DNA from: an uncultured Myxococcales bacterium
Lineage (GTDB): Bacteria; Myxococcota_A; Polyangia; Nannocystales; Nannocystaceae
Assembly (NCBI GenBank): GCA_902826865.1
Contig: CADEGN010000033.1
Location: 1-42,018 of the forward strand
Length of the DNA: 42,018 bases
Direction of reading: 5' to 3'
In this document: positions 6,183 through 19,339 of the stretch, piece by piece
Numbering within the stretch: the first letter of the stretch is position 1
Layout of the letters: every line of letters begins with the position of its first letter
Program-made: the position numbers and the translations under genes
Notes under the pieces: generated by a model
Seen by the model: only the letters and a program-made list of their open reading frames with translations
The model's database searches: none
What the model was told of the DNA's origin: nothing

Positions 6183-9100
6183 ATGTCCCGTGGACGCCTC
6201 GCTGCTGCCGTGCTGGTGCTGCTCTCGCTCGCCCTGGCGTCTGTCTGGTGGTGGCGTCAAAAGCAGGGCGCACCGGCGGGCGACGAGACGACGTCGACAA
6301 AGCCCGATCGCGTCGCCATCGTGCGCGACAAGCTGGCAGCGCGCGAGCGCGGCGAGATCGATCAGTCTGCTTCGAGCGTGGGCGGCAAGGTCGTGGGCGA
6401 AGACGGCAAGGGGATCGCGGGGGCGCTCGTGCTACTCACGCCCAAGGGCTTTGGTGAAGCCGAGGGCCGCACACCCGGCAAGCCGGCGGCGCCACAGTAT
6501 GTGACCTCTGACGCTGGTGGCGGGTGGTCGATCGCCGACGTGCGACCCGGCCGATACACACTCGGGGCCAGTGCGAGGGGCTATCTGCCCGGCCGTCTGC
6601 TCGCCGTCAACGTCGAGGCTGGACGCGCGAACACGGGCTTCGACCTCGTCTTGATGACGGGCGGTCACACGCTCAGCGGTACCGTCAGTGACATCGGCGG
6701 TGGCGCCATCGACGGTGCGCTGGTGGCGATCACCCGGGTCGACGAGGGCAACATCTTGTCATTTGATCGCGCCCCGGCCGGGGCGATCACCGATGACGAG
6801 GGGCGCTTCGCATTTCAGGTGAAGAGCGGCCACTACACGGTCACCGCGAAGCACGACGACTACGTCACCGACCACATCGGCGCCGAGGTGGCCGACGGAC
6901 CACGCCATCTGGCGCTCACGCTGACGCCCGGTGCGTCGGTGTCCGGCATTGTTCGCAGTTCACCGGGCGGGGAGCCCGTCGCGGGCGCCGTGGTCATCGC
7001 CGGCGACGGCGATAACAGCGGATTCACAGTGGCGGGGTTTGGCGACCATCGCGTCGTCAGCGATGGCGACGGACGCTTCACGTTCCACGGGCTCTCGTCG
7101 GGCGTGCACGCTCTCACCGCTGTTGCGGACAAACATGCCACCGTCGAGCCGGTGGAGGTTGCGCTCGGTGTGGCCGAGCAAGTCGACGGCGTGGAAGTGT
7201 GGGTTGAAGCGGCGTTCAAGATCTCGGGCTTCGTCGTGCGGCGGGGGCACGAGCAGGAGGGCGGGCTCGAGGGCGTGCTCGTCGGCGCGTTCTCGCTCCA
7301 GCCACCGGCGTTGTTCGCGGCGACCACACCCAGTGCCGCGGATGGCTACTTCGAGGTCCTTGGCGTGCGCAAAGGCAACTACATGGTCGGTGCCGTGGGC
7401 GAGGAGGCACTGCCGAACCTCACCGGCACCAGCGCACAGGTCGACGACGCGGACGTGAACGACGTGCTGGTGGTGATGGATCCCGGCGTCGCACTTCGCG
7501 GGCGCGTGACGCCTGCGAAGCCGGCGACGATCACCGTTGGCGTCGACACGGAGTCACTCGGGCTCTCCAACGTGCTCGCGTCGATCGGCAACGCGTTCGT
7601 GCGGGGTCGCGCCGAGGGCGACGGAGTCTTTGAGCTCGCCCCGGTTGCCGCCGGCAAACTTACCATCACGGCGATCGGTGACGACGGAAGCAAGGGTCAA
7701 CTTACGATCGAAGTGGCCGACGTTGATCAGGACGGGCTGGTGATCGAACTGGCTCCCCGTGCAACGATGTCGGGCCGCGTGGTTGACGCCCACGGTACGC
7801 CCTTGGCCGGCGCCACGGTTCGCGCGCACTCGGAAAAGCCGAGTCCGCGCGACGGTCTTGTCATCAACATGAGGGGCGGCGGCGGCGGAAACCAGGCGAC
7901 CACGACCGAACAGGGCACGTTTGCCCTCCGTGGCCTCGAGGGCGGCGCATACCTTGTGTCGGTGGACGATGGGGGCGCAGCGCTTGGGTGGGCCGACCCG
8001 AAGGACCCGAAGGATCCGAACGCACCGGTCAAGGTCGAGGTCGTGCCGCCGCTGGGAGCAGAGGGGCTCGAGTTGGTGGTCGAGGCTCGCGACGGTCGCA
8101 TTCGCGGCGTGGTGCTCGACAGCGAAGGCGCACCGGTCGTCGACGCGTGGGTGAGCGCGATGCTCGAGGGTTCCGCCAAGGAGGTCCTGTCCGAGCGATT
8201 CGAACGGAGAAACCCCGGCGAGCGGCGGGCCGAGGTGCCCGCGAGTAAAACCATGACCGACCTCGAGGAGACCGGCTTCTTCGCCGAGCGCTCGAAGCCA
8301 ACGCTGACCGACGGCGACGGCGCGTTCGAGATCACGAAGCTGCGGGCGGGGGTGTACACGGTCGTTGCCGAGGCCGGGAAGGGTGCGGCAAAGGTCAGGC
8401 AGCAGGGCGTCGTTCCGGGCAGCAGGGTGAAGCTGGAACTGGCCGCGCTCGCGTCCATTCACGGCGTCGTCGAACGGTCGGGTGCCAAGGCCAGCGATGT
8501 CACGATCTCGGTCGAGGGGCCCAGCGACCGCAGCAAGCGGGCGCATCGCGGCGAGTTCCGCATCGATCGACTTGAGCCCGGCAAGTACGAGGTGAGCGCC
8601 CGATCTTCCGACGGCTTCGCCCAGACCGAGGTGGAGGTCGCGGCCGGTGACGATGTGGAAGTGAAGCTGTCGCTCGCCGGCTTCGCCAGACTCCGTGGCA
8701 AGCTCGTCGACGCAACGGGAGCTCCGATCGCCGGGATCAAAGTGATGGTGATGCCCGACAAGGGCGAGCCGTCGATGTCGGCGGCGCTCTCGCTGCTGAC
8801 GGGCGGAGGCCCGACAACCGACGGCGATGGCAAGTTTGAGGTCGACGAGGTGCCGCCCGGGACCGGCCAAGTCCAGTTCATCGACGGCGACGCGTCCTTC
8901 GGGGGTCAGGTTGCCACAGCCAAATACAAGGTGGGTGGCGATGAAGACGAGGACCTTGGCACGATCACCGGCGTCGCCGCCGGAAAGGTGGCCAAGGGCG
9001 AGCGCGGAGACCTCGGGCTCACGACGCATGTGGCGACGTTCGCCAAACGCCCGCGCGCTTCCGGTGCGAAAGACGACGACCGGCCGGCGCCGGACGACAA

Positions 9101-9362
9101 TGAGCGACTGTGGGTGATCGCCGTCGAGATCGGCGGCGCGGCCGATGCCGCTGGGATCGAGCCGGGCGACGAGATCACCGCGATTGACGGCCAGGGGGTC
9201 GCCGGCCTGGGTTGTGCGACAGCGGCCCTGCTGCTCTCGTCCCAAAACGTGCGCGACGGCCAGGATGTGAGCCTGGTGATCGATCGCGAGGGCAGTTCGA
9301 GCACGATCCGCGTGCGCGCGCGCCCTCAGGACGGTGACAAGGGCCCCGACGCGGGCAAGTAG
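6183..9362 (+). CDS. Large secreted/anchored protein with repeated carboxypeptidase-regulatory-like domains and a C-terminal PDZ domain
   Basis: 1059 residues. Residues 3-24 are a basic start then a hydrophobic segment followed by WWWRQKQ, a signal anchor or uncleaved signal. The body is a chain of about nine beta-sandwich units of the CarboxypepD_reg type. These are recognised by recurring G-x-V-x-D-x-x-G-x-P-x-A-G-A-x-V and D-G-x-F-x-x-x-x-L-x-x-G-x-Y/H-x-L/V-x-A, for example GRVVDAHGTPLAGATVRAHS and GDGAFEITKLRAGVYTVVAE. The end (about 975-1047) is a PDZ domain with AADAAGIEPGDEITAIDGQG. Such domain chains usually act as surface or periplasmic binding scaffolds. The final PDZ could recognise peptide C-termini or link the protein to a protease or secretion complex. 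No catalytic domain is visible. It stands alone between divergent and convergent neighbours. Confidence 0.85.
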   Translation: MSRGRLAAAVLVLLSLALASVWWWRQKQGAPAGDETTSTKPDRVAIVRDKLAARERGEIDQSASSVGGKVVGEDGKGIAGALVLLTPKGFGEAEGRTPGKPAAPQYVTSDAGGGWSIADVRPGRYTLGASARGYLPGRLLAVNVEAGRANTGFDLVLMTGGHTLSGTVSDIGGGAIDGALVAITRVDEGNILSFDRAPAGAITDDEGRFAFQVKSGHYTVTAKHDDYVTDHIGAEVADGPRHLALTLTPGASVSGIVRSSPGGEPVAGAVVIAGDGDNSGFTVAGFGDHRVVSDGDGRFTFHGLSSGVHALTAVADKHATVEPVEVALGVAEQVDGVEVWVEAAFKISGFVVRRGHEQEGGLEGVLVGAFSLQPPALFAATTPSAADGYFEVLGVRKGNYMVGAVGEEALPNLTGTSAQVDDADVNDVLVVMDPGVALRGRVTPAKPATITVGVDTESLGLSNVLASIGNAFVRGRAEGDGVFELAPVAAGKLTITAIGDDGSKGQLTIEVADVDQDGLVIELAPRATMSGRVVDAHGTPLAGATVRAHSEKPSPRDGLVINMRGGGGGNQATTTEQGTFALRGLEGGAYLVSVDDGGAALGWADPKDPKDPNAPVKVEVVPPLGAEGLELVVEARDGRIRGVVLDSEGAPVVDAWVSAMLEGSAKEVLSERFERRNPGERRAEVPASKTMTDLEETGFFAERSKPTLTDGDGAFEITKLRAGVYTVVAEAGKGAAKVRQQGVVPGSRVKLELAALASIHGVVERSGAKASDVTISVEGPSDRSKRAHRGEFRIDRLEPGKYEVSARSSDGFAQTEVEVAAGDDVEVKLSLAGFARLRGKLVDATGAPIAGIKVMVMPDKGEPSMSAALSLLTGGGPTTDGDGKFEVDEVPPGTGQVQFIDGDASFGGQVATAKYKVGGDEDEDLGTITGVAAGKVAKGERGDLGLTTHVATFAKRPRASGAKDDDRPAPDDNERLWVIAVEIGGAADAAGIEPGDEITAIDGQGVAGLGCATAALLLSSQNVRDGQDVSLVIDREGSSSTIRVRARPQDGDKGPDAGK

Positions 9363-10547: not shown

Positions 10548-11111
10548 ATGGCCGACGCACCATCGAAGTTCGACGAGGGATCTCCAACGGATTCCCCAAG
10601 TAGTACGCGCCGCGGGATCCTCGGTGCCACCGCCGCGGCACTGGGCGCCGGTCTGGCTGCCACCGTGCTCGGCCCTGCGGTTATTTTCGTCGCGCACCCC
10701 CTCCGGCACGAAACCACCAGCGGCAGCGACGACTTCATTCCGGCCGGGCCGCCAAGCCTGTTTACCACCACCACGCCGATCAAGGTCGATCTGTTCGCCG
10801 ATCGCGTCGACGCGTGGAACCGCGTGGTTCAGGTCAAGGTCGGGTCGGCCTGGGTGATGGAGAAGGGCGGCAAGCTCGTCGCCCTGTCCACCGTGTGTCC
10901 GCACCTCGGTTGCGGCGTCGACTACGACACCAGCCACAACAAGTTCTACTGCGCGTGCCACAAGACTTGGTTCGGTCTCGATGGCAGCGTGGAAGAAGGC
11001 CCTTCGCCACGCGCGATGGACGAGCTTGAGGTCGAGAGCGCCGAGAAACTGGTATCGATCCGTTTTCGGCGGTTCAAGCTCGGGGTGAAGACGAAGGAGC
11101 CGATCGGATGA
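10548..11111 (+). CDS. Rieske [2Fe-2S] protein of a cytochrome bc-type complex
   Basis: 187 residues. AGGGG lies 4-8 bases before the ATG. STRRGILGATAAALGAGLAA (19-38) is a twin-arginine membrane anchor, as expected for a Rieske subunit. The cluster boxes are CPHLGC (117-122) and CACH (135-138). By family knowledge Cys117, His119, Cys135 and His138 bind the cluster, and Cys122-Cys137 form the disulphide. After box 2 the usual G-S-x-Y is K-T-W-F (139-142), so the Ser and Tyr that hydrogen-bond the cluster and raise its potential are Thr and Phe. That predicts a lower potential, as in menaquinol-oxidising systems. The gene overlaps the cytochrome b/c gene by 4 bases (ATGA), so it is the first gene of an operon. 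Confidence 0.93.
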   Translation: MADAPSKFDEGSPTDSPSSTRRGILGATAAALGAGLAATVLGPAVIFVAHPLRHETTSGSDDFIPAGPPSLFTTTTPIKVDLFADRVDAWNRVVQVKVGSAWVMEKGGKLVALSTVCPHLGCGVDYDTSHNKFYCACHKTWFGLDGSVEEGPSPRAMDELEVESAEKLVSIRFRRFKLGVKTKEPIG

Positions 11112-12799
11112 GAATCCTCGAGCTCCTCGAAGAGCGCAGCGGAATCGCGAGCGCGTGGCGCAACTTCGCCGATCGACCGTGGCCGGGCGGGCCGGCCGTG
11201 CGCCACTCGCTGTTCGCCGTGGTTATCTACTTGTTTCTCCAGCAGGCGATCCTCGGCGTGCTGCTGTCGATGTACTACAGCCCATCGTCGAGCGACGCGT
11301 GGGCCAGCACCGCATATCTGGTCGATACCGTCGAACTCGGTTGGTTCATTCGCGGGTTGCACGACCACGGCGCGTCGGCGTTCATCCTCGCGGCGGTGGC
11401 CTACCTGACCTCGCTTGTGGTGTTCAGTGGATATCGCCGCCCGCGCGAGTTGGTGTGGGTGGCCGCGCTGGGCGTGCTGGCGCTCGGCCTCGCCGAGGGC
11501 ATGACCGGCAATCCTCTGCCGTGGGACGAGACGGGATACTGGGCGATCCAAGTTGAGCTTGGCATCGCGGAGCAGACGCCCGGTGGATCGATCATCAAGC
11601 AGCTCGTTCAAGGCGGGAGTCAAGCCGGCAACTTCACGTTGACGCGCCTGTTTGTCTTGCACGCGTTCGTCTTGCCGGCGGTGCTGGGTGCGCTCTTGCT
11701 GTTTATCGCCAAGCAGCGCAATCGTGTCGGCGTGGGCAGTGCGCCGCCGCGGGGGCGGACCGGCACCTACGCCCCCGGTCAGCTCGTGCTCGACATGGCG
11801 GCGATGACGATCGCCGCCGGTAGCCTCATCGCCGCCACGATCTCGAGCCACGGCACCGAACTCATGGCGCCCGCGGATCCGACGAGCGGATTCCAAGCGC
11901 GCCCGGAGTGGTACTTCCTCTTCCTCTACAAGCTGCGGATGTACTTCGAGGGTCCGAACGAGGCCATCGCCACCATGGTGATCCCGGGCCTCGCGGGTGG
12001 GTTCTTGGTGGCGATCCCGGTGATGGAGGCGGTCGCTGGGCGGCTCGGTCGCGTCCTCGCGCTGCTCGGCTATTCGAGTCTGCTCGCCGGCGCGGCGGTA
12101 CTCACGAACGTCGCTCTCCGCGATGACCGCGGCGATGAGAGCTATCAGAAGGCGCTCAAGGAGGCCAACGTCCAGGCCGAGCGTGCGCGTCGGCTGGCGA
12201 AGGAGGGCGTCATGCCCGAGGGCGGCCCCGCGGTGTTTTGGAACGACCCGGAGTTCAAGGTCAAGCAGCTCTATATCGAACACTGCCGCAACTGCCACGA
12301 GCTAGATGGATTTGGCGGCGGGGAAGCCCCGGCGTTGACCGACTACTCGAGTCGAGAGTGGTTGTCGGCGGTGATCCGCAACCCTTCCGACGACAGATTC
12401 TTCGGCAAGACCAAGCACACCGACATGGACGCCTACGGGCCCGACAAGATCGACGCGGAAAAGCTTGCCGCCACGGTGGAGTTTCTCGCGTCGCTAACCG
12501 ATGACATGGGAGCGGACGCGGCGCTGGCGGCCACCGGCGAGAAGCTCTGGGACGACGAGCTCGAGTGCAGCACGTGCCACGAGATCGAGGCCGGCAAGGC
12601 GAGCGACGCGCCGAATCTGTATCGCCACGGCACGCTGGCGTGGGTCGAACGCGTCATCCGAGATTCGAGCCAGCCCGATCTGTTCGGCAAGGCGGCGCAG
12701 ATGCCGAAGTTCACGGACAAACTGAGCGACGAAGAGATCACTAGCTTGGCGAAATTCGTCGTGGCGCGCCGGAGCCCGGCGGCGGCCGACGACTCGTGA
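11108..12799 (+). CDS. Cytochrome b (b6 plus subunit IV type) fused to a diheme cytochrome c; haem bH ligands missing
   Basis: 563 residues in three parts. (1) Residues 30-200: four helices of cytochrome b6. (2) Residues 225-335: three helices like subunit IV, with the quinol-site motif PEWY (266-269). (3) Residues 370-555: two class-I cytochrome c domains with CRNCH (393-397, likely Met440) and CSTCH (487-491, likely Met532). Helix B aligns without gaps to cytochrome b6 from the conserved His to PREL. His85 is kept, but the second His, 14 residues on, is Tyr99. Helix D keeps His185 (VLHAFVLP), but the second His, 15 residues on, is Ile200. So the bL pair is present and the bH pair is absent. 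The b6 Gly-Gly in helix A (here Phe35-Ala36) and the first helix C Gly (here Ala120) are also lost. The c domains should take the electrons from the Rieske protein. Confidence 0.93.
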   Translation: MRILELLEERSGIASAWRNFADRPWPGGPAVRHSLFAVVIYLFLQQAILGVLLSMYYSPSSSDAWASTAYLVDTVELGWFIRGLHDHGASAFILAAVAYLTSLVVFSGYRRPRELVWVAALGVLALGLAEGMTGNPLPWDETGYWAIQVELGIAEQTPGGSIIKQLVQGGSQAGNFTLTRLFVLHAFVLPAVLGALLLFIAKQRNRVGVGSAPPRGRTGTYAPGQLVLDMAAMTIAAGSLIAATISSHGTELMAPADPTSGFQARPEWYFLFLYKLRMYFEGPNEAIATMVIPGLAGGFLVAIPVMEAVAGRLGRVLALLGYSSLLAGAAVLTNVALRDDRGDESYQKALKEANVQAERARRLAKEGVMPEGGPAVFWNDPEFKVKQLYIEHCRNCHELDGFGGGEAPALTDYSSREWLSAVIRNPSDDRFFGKTKHTDMDAYGPDKIDAEKLAATVEFLASLTDDMGADAALAATGEKLWDDELECSTCHEIEAGKASDAPNLYRHGTLAWVERVIRDSSQPDLFGKAAQMPKFTDKLSDEEITSLAKFVVARRSPAAADDS

Positions 12800-12877: not shown

Positions 12878-14611
12878 ATGATCGCACGCGGATCGCTCTT
12901 CTTCTGGGGTGCCCTGGCAGCGTTTGTCGCCGGGCTCGGTTGCAGCAATTGCGGTGGAGCGTCGCCCGCCCATGTCCCCGAGGGTGGCGGGGCTCCCTCG
13001 GCTCCCGTGGCGGCGCGCGCGGAGTTTGAGCTCGTGGCATTCGGTCGCGTGCTCGGCACGATCGCGCCATGTGGTTGCACCACCGAACCCCTCGGCGGGC
13101 TGCAATATGTATTCGGATGGCTGCAGGCCAACACGTCGATGGGTGCGCGCCTGGTTCTTGAGCCGGGCTCGTTCCTGTTTCCCGACCCACGGGGACCGAA
13201 CGCCGCGACCGACAGTGCCGGTTGGGAACAGGCCGAGGCACGCGCGACGCTTCTCAGCCGAACGTTCGCGGAATTGGGCGACGCACTCGTATCGGGCTAC
13301 GGCCCAACCGACGCGTCGTCGCCCGCCGGTGCTGCGGCTGACCTCGTCCGTGCGCGACCCAAGGTCGCGTGCAATGTGACGCCGGGCGATGGCACGTCGG
13401 TCGCGCGCGGCCGGATCGTCGAGCTGCGCGATGAGGGTATGACGTGGAGGGTTGGCGTGACGATGGTGCTCGACCCCGCGCTGCCCGACCTCGCGGCCAT
13501 GGGCGCCGTCGCGCCTGCGGCGGCATCTGTGCGCGACGCGATCGCCGAGCTGCGCGCGCAGGGGGCCGACGCCGTCGTCGTGATGGCCCACGGCGATCGC
13601 AAGTTCGCCGAGGCCCTCGTCCGCGAGGTCGAAGGGATCGATGTCGTTGTCGTCGGCGTGGTCCAGGGGGTCGAACGCGCGCGCACCGGCTTCCCCGCGG
13701 CCCGGCTGGGCAGTACCTGGGTGCTCGAGCCCGGGGATCAAATGCAGACGGTCTCCCGATTGCGGCTGTCGATCGACACCGCCGGCAAGGTCATACCGGC
13801 GCCGACGGCCTGGGAAGCCGTGCCGGCGCGGGCCGACCTTGAGCGCGAGCTAGCCCGCATCGAGGAGCGCCTGGCCAAGTTCGCCAGCGATCCCACCGCC
13901 GATCGGTCGTTCATCGCCCGCTTGGAGGAGGAACGCGCACGCGTGAAGGCCGATATGGATCAGCCGGTCAGCGCGCCGGCGTCGGTGTTGTTCGAGCAGG
14001 TCAAGGTCACCTGCAAGCTGCCCGCGGACCCTGCCGCGAGCCAAGCGCTCACGGCCTACGATCTCCGCGTAGCAGAGTCCAACAAGAGACGCTTCACTGG
14101 CGTCAAGCCGCCGGCCCCTGACAAGGGCAAGGCCGGATTCGTCGGCCTGACAGCCTGCGCCGACTGCCACGAGGACGCAGTCGAGTTCTGGAAGACGACC
14201 GTGCACGCTTCGGCATGGAAGACCCTCGTCGATGGCAAGAAGGACCTTGATCTGTCGTGCGTGAGCTGTCACGTCACCGGGTTCCGCAAGCCTGGGGGCA
14301 GCGAGCTCGTGGAAAACCAGGGGCTTCGCGACGTCCAGTGCGAGGTGTGCCACGGACCGGGAAGCCTGCATGTCGATGACGGCGGCGACAACCTGGCTCG
14401 AATCACGCTCGCCACGCCGGAGAAACTGTGTCGAGGCGAATGCCATACGCCGGAGCACTCCGACACCTTCGACTACGTGCCGTACTTGCGCGATATCCTC
14501 GGGCCCGGCCATGGTGCCGCTGCGCGGGCGAAGCTCGGGGACGGACCGACCGGCGCTGAGCTGCGCAAGGCCGGGCTCGCCAAGGCGGGCGGTCCGTGCA
14601 AGAAGATGTGA
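12878..14611 (+). CDS. Multiheme c-type cytochrome lipoprotein with metallophosphatase/5'-nucleotidase-like N-terminal domain
   Basis: 577 residues. An N-terminal hydrophobic segment ends at AGLGC (Cys22), a probable lipid-anchor site though not a perfect lipobox. Residues 48-310 resemble a UshA-like metallophosphatase fold (VVVMAHGDRKFAEALVREV, IDVVVVGVVQG), but the usual metal-binding Asp/His/Asn set is not evident. It carries an APCGCTTEPLGG motif (63-74) known from multiheme-cytochrome relatives. A coiled-coil-like stretch rich in Glu/Arg/Ala lies at 319-360. The C-terminal part is a cytochrome c554-like multiheme domain with CADCH (427-431), CVSCH (461-465), CEVCH (488-492) and a CXXXCH site, CRGECH (518-523). 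Extra His and Met residues could be axial ligands. Position and haem content suggest it exchanges electrons with the upstream b/c complex on the outer face of the membrane. Its substrate or partner is unknown. Confidence 0.85.
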   Translation: MIARGSLFFWGALAAFVAGLGCSNCGGASPAHVPEGGGAPSAPVAARAEFELVAFGRVLGTIAPCGCTTEPLGGLQYVFGWLQANTSMGARLVLEPGSFLFPDPRGPNAATDSAGWEQAEARATLLSRTFAELGDALVSGYGPTDASSPAGAAADLVRARPKVACNVTPGDGTSVARGRIVELRDEGMTWRVGVTMVLDPALPDLAAMGAVAPAAASVRDAIAELRAQGADAVVVMAHGDRKFAEALVREVEGIDVVVVGVVQGVERARTGFPAARLGSTWVLEPGDQMQTVSRLRLSIDTAGKVIPAPTAWEAVPARADLERELARIEERLAKFASDPTADRSFIARLEEERARVKADMDQPVSAPASVLFEQVKVTCKLPADPAASQALTAYDLRVAESNKRRFTGVKPPAPDKGKAGFVGLTACADCHEDAVEFWKTTVHASAWKTLVDGKKDLDLSCVSCHVTGFRKPGGSELVENQGLRDVQCEVCHGPGSLHVDDGGDNLARITLATPEKLCRGECHTPEHSDTFDYVPYLRDILGPGHGAAARAKLGDGPTGAELRKAGLAKAGGPCKKM

Positions 14612-16752: not shown

Positions 16753-17859
16753 ATGCTCCGGCCGGTGCTCCGCAAGGTTGACACGTCGCGATTCGATGTC
16801 GCCGGCGCCGGCGATCCCGCCGGCAGTGTGTTCGGGCTCCCGTACGATGAACGCGAGAGCGCGATCGTGCTGGTGCCGGTCCCGTGGGAGGCCACGACGA
16901 GCTATGGTCGTGGCACGGTGCGCGGTCCGTCGGCGATCCGTGCCGCCAGCCTCCAGCTCGACCTGTTTGATCTCGAGCTGGCACAGTGCGGGCTCGGGCA
17001 GCCTTGGACCTACGGGATTCACATGCGCGACGAGTCGCCCGAAGTTCGGGCGTGGAACGACGAGGCTTGCGCGGCGGCGCTGCCGATTGTCGCCGCGGGT
17101 GGCGAGCTCGGGGGTGATCCCGCGCTTGCGCGGGCGCTCGACCGGGTCAACGAGCTCTCCCACCGGCTCGACGCCTGGGTCGAGCGCGAGGTCGCGGCGC
17201 TCTTGGCCGCAGGCAAGATCGCCGGTGTCGTCGGTGGCGATCACTCGGTCGCGCTGGGGGCGATCGCCGCCCATGCGGCGCACTACGGAGAACTCGGCCT
17301 GCTGCACATCGACGCCCACGCCGATCAGCGGCGGGCCTACGAGGGGTTCGATCGCTCCCATGCGAGCGTCCTGTACAACGCGCTTGAGCTGGTGCCGGGC
17401 GTGTCCCGCGTGGTTTCCGTCGGCGTTCGCGATCTCAGCGCGTGGGAGTTCGATCGCTGTCGCTCGCACCCGAAGATCGAGCTGTGGTCCGATCCGAGGA
17501 TGCGCGCAAAATTGGCCGATGGCACCCCCTTGAAGGCGCTGTGCGACGACATCGTGGACGCGCTGCCGCGCGACGTATACGTGACGTTCGACATCGATGG
17601 TCTTGACCCTGCACTGTGCCCCGGGACGGGCACGCCGGTGCCGGGCGGCCTCGCTTTCGCCGAGGCCACCGCGCTGCTCGCCAGTCTTCATCGCCACGGG
17701 AAGCGGCTCGTCGGCTTCGATCTCGTCGAGGTCGCGCCCGGACCCGAGGGTGGCTTCGTAGGCGGCGCGCCGGCCGGGCAGTGGGACGGCAACGTCGGTG
17801 CGCGCGTGCTATACAAGCTATGTGGATGGTCGCTGGCAACTCGAGGTGGACGTGACTGA
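16753..17859 (+). CDS. speB: Agmatinase/arginase-family ureohydrolase
   Basis: 368 residues from the ATG at 16753; the frame opens earlier, but this ATG fits the family length and the divergent neighbour. Family blocks in order are VPVPWEATTSYGRGT (41-55), GGDHSVALG (161-169), HIDAHADQR (185-193), and FDIDGLDPALCPGTGTPVPG (279-298). His164, Asp187, His189, Asp191, Asp280 and Asp282 match the six ligands of the two-manganese centre. The family hydrolyses guanidino compounds to urea plus an amine. The PWEATTSYGRGT block is typical of the bacterial agmatinase-like group, so putrescine formation from agmatine is the best guess. Arginase or guanidinobutyrase cannot be excluded. The 3' end overlaps the start of the HAD-UbiA gene, so the two are translationally linked. 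Confidence 0.85.
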   Translation: MLRPVLRKVDTSRFDVAGAGDPAGSVFGLPYDERESAIVLVPVPWEATTSYGRGTVRGPSAIRAASLQLDLFDLELAQCGLGQPWTYGIHMRDESPEVRAWNDEACAAALPIVAAGGELGGDPALARALDRVNELSHRLDAWVEREVAALLAAGKIAGVVGGDHSVALGAIAAHAAHYGELGLLHIDAHADQRRAYEGFDRSHASVLYNALELVPGVSRVVSVGVRDLSAWEFDRCRSHPKIELWSDPRMRAKLADGTPLKALCDDIVDALPRDVYVTFDIDGLDPALCPGTGTPVPGGLAFAEATALLASLHRHGKRLVGFDLVEVAPGPEGGFVGGAPAGQWDGNVGARVLYKLCGWSLATRGGRD

Positions 17860-19339
17860 CGCCGAGCGCGAACAAGCGGCTGCGGGAGCGGCTCAGGGCG
17901 CGGTTGCGACCGTCACCGATGTGCCACTCGTGGTCGATCTCGACGGCACGCTCATCAAGTCGGACGTGCTGTGGGAGTCGCTGATGCTGCTCATGCGCGA
18001 TCGGCCTTGGGCGTTGATTCGCGCCCTGCGATGGCTGAGCGGAGGCAAAGCGTCGTTCAAGGCCAAGCTGGTGGCTGAGGTTGCGCTTGATCCCGCTGCC
18101 TTGCCGTACCGCGACGACGTGCTTGCCTTCGTCCACGCGGCCCGTGGCGAGGGCCGGCGGGTCGTACTCGCAACCGCCACCCACCAGGCAGTGGCGGACT
18201 TGGTTGCGGGTCACCTCGGCGTGTTCGACGAGGTGCTTGGCACCGAAGGCCAGACGAATCTCGGGGGCGCGACGAAACGCCACGCGCTCGAGCAGCGCTA
18301 CGGCAACAAGGGTTTCGACTACATGGGCGATCATCGCCGTGATATCCCGATTTTCGCGGGCGCACGGTCCGCCCATCTCGTGGGCGCGAGCTCCTCGGTC
18401 GAGCAGGCGGCCCGCACCCACGGCAACGTCGATCGGGTGTTTCCCCGCGCTCGCGGAGGGCCACTCCTGTGGCTCAGGGCCATGCGTATTCATCAGTGGG
18501 TGAAGAACGCGCTCTTGTTTCTGCCCCTCACGCTGGCCCATCGTCTCACCGATTTTCACGATCTCTTGCGCGTATCGATCGCGTTCGTCGCATTTGGCCT
18601 GGTCGCATCCTCGACCTACCAAATCAACGACTTGCGCGACTTGGCGGCCGACCGCCGACACGCGCGCAAGCGGACCCGAGCGCTAGCGTCTGGGGACCTC
18701 AGTATCCCGGCCGGCTTGACTCTCGCCGCCGTGGCGTTTGTGTCGGGGTTTGCCGTAGCCCTCGCTTGGCTCCCGGCGGCGTTCGCTGGAATCCTCGCCG
18801 GCTACACCGTGCTCACGCTTGTCTACTCGTTCGAGCTCAAGCGCCGATTGCTGGTCGACATCATCGCGCTCGCCCTGCTGTACACGCTCCGCATCGTCGC
18901 GGGCGGGGCCGCCGCGGGCGTCGTGGTCTCAGAGTGGTTGCTGGCATTTTCCTTGTTTTTCTTCACCAATCTCGCGTTTCTCAAGCGCTACATCGAATTG
19001 CGGCAGATGCTCCCGACCGCGGGCGGCAAGGTCGCGGGTCGTGGCTACGTCGATACCGACGCCAACATGATTCGTTCGGTCGGTCCGTCGACGGGCACGG
19101 CGGCGGTCCTCGTCATGGCGCTTTACATCAACGGTGCCCAGGTTCAAAAGCTGTATCCCGCGGCGTTTTGGCTGTGGCTGATCGTCCCCATCCTCATCTA
19201 TTGGAACATGCGGGTGTGGTTTCTCGCCGAACGCGGCGAGGTCGACCACGATCCGGTCGTGTTCGCCCTGCGTGACCGGGTGACCTGGGCCGCCACCGCC
19301 GCCGTTGCAGTTATTGCCGTGCTAGCCACGATCGGCTAG
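17852..19339 (+). CDS. HAD phosphatase-UbiA prenyltransferase fusion (DPPR synthase-like)
   Basis: 495 residues from the GTG at 17852, which overlaps the agmatinase stop and has GAGG 6 bases upstream; an upstream GTG at 17798 is less likely. Residues 25-200 are a HAD phosphatase, with DLDGTLIKSD (29-38), LATAT near 107 and GDHRRDIPIF (159-168) as motifs I, II and III/IV. Residues 205-495 are a UbiA-type integral membrane prenyltransferase. It has NDLRDLAADRR (259-269, the first Asp-rich motif), RTRALASGDLS, YSFELKRRLLVDIIALALLY and a VSEWLLAFSLFFF segment like decaprenyl-phosphate phosphoribosyltransferases. By analogy it would join a phosphorylated sugar to polyprenyl phosphate, and the HAD half would remove the phosphate. 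The actual acceptor is unknown. Its stop codon lies inside a tandem repeat. Confidence 0.86.
   Translation: MTDAEREQAAAGAAQGAVATVTDVPLVVDLDGTLIKSDVLWESLMLLMRDRPWALIRALRWLSGGKASFKAKLVAEVALDPAALPYRDDVLAFVHAARGEGRRVVLATATHQAVADLVAGHLGVFDEVLGTEGQTNLGGATKRHALEQRYGNKGFDYMGDHRRDIPIFAGARSAHLVGASSSVEQAARTHGNVDRVFPRARGGPLLWLRAMRIHQWVKNALLFLPLTLAHRLTDFHDLLRVSIAFVAFGLVASSTYQINDLRDLAADRRHARKRTRALASGDLSIPAGLTLAAVAFVSGFAVALAWLPAAFAGILAGYTVLTLVYSFELKRRLLVDIIALALLYTLRIVAGGAAAGVVVSEWLLAFSLFFFTNLAFLKRYIELRQMLPTAGGKVAGRGYVDTDANMIRSVGPSTGTAAVLVMALYINGAQVQKLYPAAFWLWLIVPILIYWNMRVWFLAERGEVDHDPVVFALRDRVTWAATAAVAVIAVLATIG

Follow-up and report, generated by a model that had tools for sequence, protein, structure and literature searches.

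The fused cytochrome b6/subunit IV/dihaem cytochrome c encoded in this stretch of DNA (42,018 nucleotides, analyzed whole and called the window here) carries neither of the histidines that hold haem bH in cytochrome b6 and, as judged from the alignment of its relatives, is one case of a recurrent loss of bH ligands in this fusion family. Loss of the normal bis-His bH site is well supported by the aligned sequences. From the recurrence of the loss in many unrelated lineages, it would seem that evolution has done away with half of the energy-saving Q cycle and kept the rest of the enzyme. The fusion is probably part of a derived Rieske/cytochrome b complex without haem bH and a Qi site, acting as a linear quinol:cytochrome c reductase.

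The window fusion and its haem-ligand positions

Residues 37-198 of the fusion were assigned by Pfam to cytochrome b/b6 (PF00033; E 1.3e-32) and its C-terminal part to two class I cytochrome c domains (PF00034/PF13442), and no cytochrome f domain was found by Pfam in the fusion ORF. The top match among solved structures was cytochrome b6 (2zt9_A; phmmer E 8.6e-36), and the haem-free AlphaFold2 model (mean pLDDT of 94.9) had a cytochrome b fold (Foldseek E 7.7e-14). The ORF is free of internal stop codons. Upstream lies the Rieske gene, the 3' end of which overlaps the start of the fusion by 4 bases; its product has all cluster ligands, and its best NCBIfam models are b6f PetC-like. By homology, the fusion belongs to the Rieske/cytochrome b complexes, and we regard it as a derived variant because the bis-His pair for haem bH is missing. 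In the dihaem part, Met440 and Met532 are the likely axial ligands of c haems 1 and 2, respectively, as read from the alignment (Table 1).

An earlier note on this DNA had aligned helices B and D to cytochrome b6 without gaps and had placed Tyr99 and Ile200 at the two bH ligand positions. The phmmer alignment of both helices to 2zt9_A likewise contained no gaps and confirmed both placements. The bL pair, the PEWY motif and the Rieske partner proved intact as had been claimed, and the helix A and helix C glycines beside bH, described as bulky or lost, are Phe36 and Ala120. Haem bL thus retains its bis-His pair (His85 and His185), the residues at the bH site are Tyr99 and Ile200, and the bL-side glycines Gly50 and Gly131 are kept.

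Table 1. Positions in the window of the fusion, its functional residues and the adjoining genes
Feature	Positions	Strand	Basis
Rieske [2Fe-2S] subunit, 187 aa, CPHLGC...CACH motif	10548..11111	+	PF00355, E 5.9e-10
Cytochrome b6/subunit IV/dihaem cytochrome c fusion, 563 aa	11108..12799	+	Translation, Pfam, phmmer, AlphaFold2
Phe36, replaces bH-side glycine of helix A	11213..11215	+	Alignment to b6; relatives
His85, bL ligand, helix B	11360..11362	+	Matches b6 bL ligand; invariant, 153 rows
Tyr99 (TAC), replaces helix B bH ligand	11402..11404	+	Alignment to b6
Ala120, replaces bH-side glycine of helix C	11465..11467	+	Alignment to b6; relatives
His185, bL ligand, helix D	11660..11662	+	Matches b6 bL ligand; invariant, 153 rows
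Ile200 (ATC), replaces helix D bH ligand	11705..11707	+	Alignment to b6
PEWY motif of Qo site, residues 266-269	11903..11914	+	Translation and alignment
First CXXCH (CRNCH), residues 393-397	12284..12298	+	PF00034/PF13442; invariant in relatives
Met440, invariant	12425..12427	+	Alignment of relatives
Second CXXCH (CSTCH), residues 487-491	12566..12580	+	Pfam and alignment of relatives
Met532, almost invariant	12701..12703	+	Alignment of relatives
UshA-like protein, cytochrome c554-like multihaem C-terminus (3 CXXCH, 1 CXXXCH)	12878..14611	+	PF13435, E 1.8e-16; UshA_like_PCGU

Recurrent loss of bH ligands among related fusions

Relatives were gathered from phylum, family and class searches and from GTDB contigs, and 153 fusions with the same architecture and both halves readable were analyzed. 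Most of the genomes sampled are metagenome-assembled (MAGs); the assembly that holds the window comprises 8.5 Mb in 628 contigs and is 91% complete. Aligning the relatives in search of the same loss, as the earlier note had advised, revealed 34 fusions without at least one bH ligand (deficient) and 119 with both (intact), and the bL ligands were invariant in 153/153. Among the 34 deficient proteins, the helix D His was absent in 33 and the helix B His in 16, with His99 still present in 18. The residues found at position 200 in deficient proteins were varied (R, I, S, W, G, V, M, F and A). No consistent replacement His common to the 34 was found in the alignment of the 153 fusions; an alternative His for a second haem b was what the earlier note had named as grounds for giving up its reading. 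His33 of helix A was considered as an alternative ligand and set aside: it is enriched in deficient proteins (13/34 versus 6/119) but is unsupported by independent pairs.

On a tree of the 153 rows built without the four trait columns, the bH-ligand state required 11 changes, 9 of them forced by well-supported branches. A single ancestral loss was rejected: in a 38-row subset that included 18 deficient rows, holding the latter together cost 865 log-likelihood units (p-AU 2.6e-9).

Three MAGs of the window's own genus (L003, L032 and L033) keep His99 and have Val or Ile at position 200, together with Phe36 and Ala120. Within the family, the isolate Paraliomyxa miuraensis SMH-27-4 (L034, the same as L059) and L035 have Tyr99/Ile200, and Trp99 is combined with Val200 or Ile200 in L036 and L037; both His are present in most other family members, Nannocystis included, and many members of the class are without any fusion. 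P. miuraensis SMH-27-4 is reported to be difficult to culture (PMC10051162). Because of the comparison inside the window's genus, we conclude that ligand loss was stepwise and not simultaneous. The earlier note had argued for a coordinated change and not a sequencing error; agreement among independent genomes upholds the latter part, but the same-genus loci contradict simultaneous loss.

Intermediates in which the helix D ligand is lost and His99 is kept also occur in L175/L199, L015/L193, L021/L024/L204, L202, L207/L208 and L166/L168/L172/L176/L177, and the reverse state (Tyr99 with His200) was seen once, in L047. These states suggest that the helix D His and the helix C Gly are normally lost first and the helix B His later. 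In the Verrucomicrobiota, L253 has His99/Arg200/Ala120, and its nearest relative, L252 (the L070 gene), retains neither ligand and has Trp36/Ala120; the 23 other fusions of that order are intact. Judged by these residues, the Verrucomicrobiota go through the same steps of loss. Intact b6-IV-c fusions (Nannocystis MAG L062/L045, Gemmatimonadota L064-L067 and Verrucomicrobiota L254-L276) have the domain order of the window fusion and, where checked, an adjoining Rieske gene as in the window; they have both bH ligands and the glycines, whereas the window fusion is without them.

The surroundings of the bH pocket have changed as well. Gly120 of helix C was changed in 30/34 deficient versus 6/119 intact proteins, and 6 to 8 of 9 independent pairs were concordant (mean of 7.4; 0 opposite; median P = 0.016). 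Gly36 of helix A was changed in 19/34 versus 0/119, with about 4 of 9 independent pairs (not significant alone), and the bL-side Gly50 was never changed among the 153 fusions. The N-side positions 107, 108 and 205 drift too in deficient proteins (median P of 0.06 for 107 and 0.13 for 205 in independent pairs). The deficient/intact ratio of conservation was 0.60 in the N half and 0.82 in the P half of the four-helix bundle, a contrast that is moderate because the deficient rows are more diverse; it was 0.92 in the Qo region and 1.12 in the c domains.

Several individual variants were observed at these sites. L175 combines His99 with Met200, a possible natural His-Met b haem; according to PMC4807273, no such haem had been reported for integral membrane proteins. 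The clade of L166, L168, L172, L176 and L177 (genomes of 7 to 15 Mb) has PAWY and Ser or Arg at 200, and its retention of His99 throughout hints that this residue may still do something; in L172 and L176, helix C position 120, which adjoins the bH pocket, is occupied by Lys. In a clade with both bH ligands intact (L171, L173, L174, L178, L183, L185, L187, L188, L190, L191, L194, L195, L203, L206 and L219), the Glu of PEWY is lost (PLWY, PLWF or PLWP).

Selection, genomic setting and alternative explanations

A Rieske gene with a complete motif adjoins the fusion in 34/34 deficient loci, and both CXXCH motifs are preserved in all deficient proteins. Pairwise NG86 estimates of dN/dS, which are rough because codon use is G+C-rich, ranged from 0.13 to 0.57 for two deficient clades and from 0.07 to 0.21 for two intact clades. 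Purifying selection is thus weaker in the deficient clades than in the intact clades compared, yet dN/dS remains below 1; given this and the intact Rieske ligands, the gene is not dead.

PF00033 proteins numbered one per genome in 14/14 genomes checked, deficient or intact, including the complete single-contig genomes G525 and G527. A second cytochrome b copy as relief in the window's genome was therefore discarded, the single PF00033 protein being the only one found. This genome carries aa3-type and cbb3-type oxidase genes and, separate from the fusion ORF, an Alternative Complex III (ACIII) cluster (L243; ActB versus 6lod_B, E 3.4e-225; ActC versus 6f0k_C, E 1.7e-209). ActC was present in 252/318 genomes of the class and in 28 of its 32 deficient genomes, and was not found in the remaining deficient genomes of the class, G301, G445, G460 and G472. 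ACIII was rejected as a predictor of bH loss since it occurs in intact genomes too; its relation to the loss is at most permissive. A second NrfD-type cluster in the same genome (L244, contig C209), with molybdopterin-like and CXXCH-bearing proteins, differs from the ACIII cluster.

A gene for the UshA-like multihaem protein lies 3' of the fusion in the window, L055 (the same as L003), L229 (L033) and L060 (L036). These four loci, all bH-deficient and from two genera, were the only ones in which it adjoins the fusion. The other deficient loci, P. miuraensis L059 included, yielded no such neighbor, some of them being short. The protein is a possible partner or extra acceptor of the fusion. Elsewhere in the window, positions 17798-19339 encode a fusion of HAD hydrolase and UbiA prenyltransferase domains, and positions 6183-9362 encode a protein of 1059 aa that has seven carboxypeptidase-regulatory-like repeats and ends in a PDZ domain.

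These data bear on other explanations of the missing ligands. A haem might still occupy the bH position through an unusual or single ligand, as a high-spin centre that reduces N-side quinone. Tyr99 in the window protein, the retained His99, and Met200 (L175) or Lys120 (L172/L176) in relatives are candidate ligands; the 18 of 34 proteins with His99 may in some cases keep a five-coordinate haem, and an engineered bc1 works with His-Lys ligation (PMC4807273). We nonetheless judge this account unlikely, if plausible, as Tyr99 and Ile200 are not usual b-haem ligands, Phe36 and Ala120 have taken the place of the packing glycines in the window protein, the varied residues at 200 offer no common alternative, and no consistent new His was found in the deficient proteins. 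Distinctly unlikely, in our view, is decay, in which ACIII makes the complex redundant and pseudogenization starts with the loss of bH. The preserved bL ligands, P-side residues, Rieske motif and both CXXCH motifs of all deficient proteins, the dN/dS below 1, the maintenance of the deficient form by whole clades spanning several genera and the uninterrupted window ORF oppose it, although ACIII is present in most of these genomes, dN/dS is higher in the deficient than in the intact clades compared and the fusion is missing from many class members.

Electrons on bL could instead leave to another acceptor, such as the neighboring c554-like multihaem protein or O2. This would suit the window, L055, L229 and L060, all bH-deficient loci with the multihaem gene after the fusion, but not the remaining deficient loci (some short), including P. 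miuraensis L059, where the gene was not found, and we consider it highly unlikely. That the pattern stems from misalignment or from sequencing or assembly error is close to inconceivable, even with genomes that are mostly MAGs: the alignment to solved b6 is gapless, and independent genomes agree, among them an isolate and complete genomes.

Proposed electron flow and relation to known complexes

In bc complexes, quinol is oxidized at Qo, with one electron passing to the Rieske cluster and one to bL, and without bH the second electron cannot reach Qi. Quinol oxidation at Qo without Qi, with linear flow to cytochrome c, would be the most economical reading of the deficient sequences. In this linear reductase, the Rieske cluster would deliver the first electron to the fused dihaem c domain, from which it would reach cytochrome c or an oxidase. 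The second, on haem bL with no route across the membrane, would return to the high-potential chain via Qo of the same monomer or, through bL-bL contact, of the other. Both electrons would then end on cytochrome c, with protons released on the P side, no Q-cycle charge movement and half the proton yield. A distance of 14 A separates the bL haems of two monomers, and electron exchange between them takes milliseconds (PMC4330944); therefore, both Qo sites can share electrons. Loss of bH would be tolerated because most such bacteria also carry ACIII. We infer that the protein is without the haem, that electrons take this route and that ACIII provides relief. For the deficient proteins as a natural class (a single b haem, no Qi, at least nine origins, linear quinol:cytochrome c reduction, and ligands lost from helix D and then helix B), we see the case as evenly balanced.

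Cytochrome b6f complexes (b6 of 2zt9 and 1q90) share with the window fusion the helix A-D bundle and the bL bis-His pair, and have in common with its complex the b6-type helix D spacing (15 residues), PEWY, a Rieske partner and a c-type acceptor. In b6f, however, b6, subunit IV and cytochrome f are separate, whereas the window has a single fused ORF with a dihaem c domain; b6f keeps the bH ligands and bH glycines, both of which the window protein is without; and Cys35 of b6, which binds haem cn covalently, corresponds to Ser34.

In Rhodobacter capsulatus bc1 H212N, as in the window, the helix D bH ligand is replaced and the Qo side is intact (PMC4807273, PMC4330944). This "heme bH knock-out" is impaired in bH/Qi electron transfer (PMC4807273), and it is a single engineered change, unlike the natural, selected, multi-residue change of the window. 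By analogy, the impairment of laboratory knock-outs at bH/Qi would count against a linear mode unless that mode is fast enough. Malnoe and colleagues are said to have reported, in Nature Communications in 2011, photosynthetic growth of Chlamydomonas with a b6f whose Q-cycle is broken; that complex is engineered and photosynthetic, unlike the window's. No earlier report of natural haem bH loss was found in the literature searched, which covered myxobacterial bc complexes and ACIII and left key journals outside, and priority for it cannot be claimed.

To our knowledge, complex III-type enzymes are regarded as defined by a Q cycle with two haems and two sites, which is considered nearly universal among them. 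Repeated removal of bH ligands, with bL, the Rieske subunit and the c haems guarded, would mean that natural selection can dispense with the second half of this cycle. Related enzymes of one family, some with bH ligands and others without, form pairs in which bifurcation, short-circuit control and coupling may be tested, and the co-presence of ACIII suggests when a cell can afford to lose bH.
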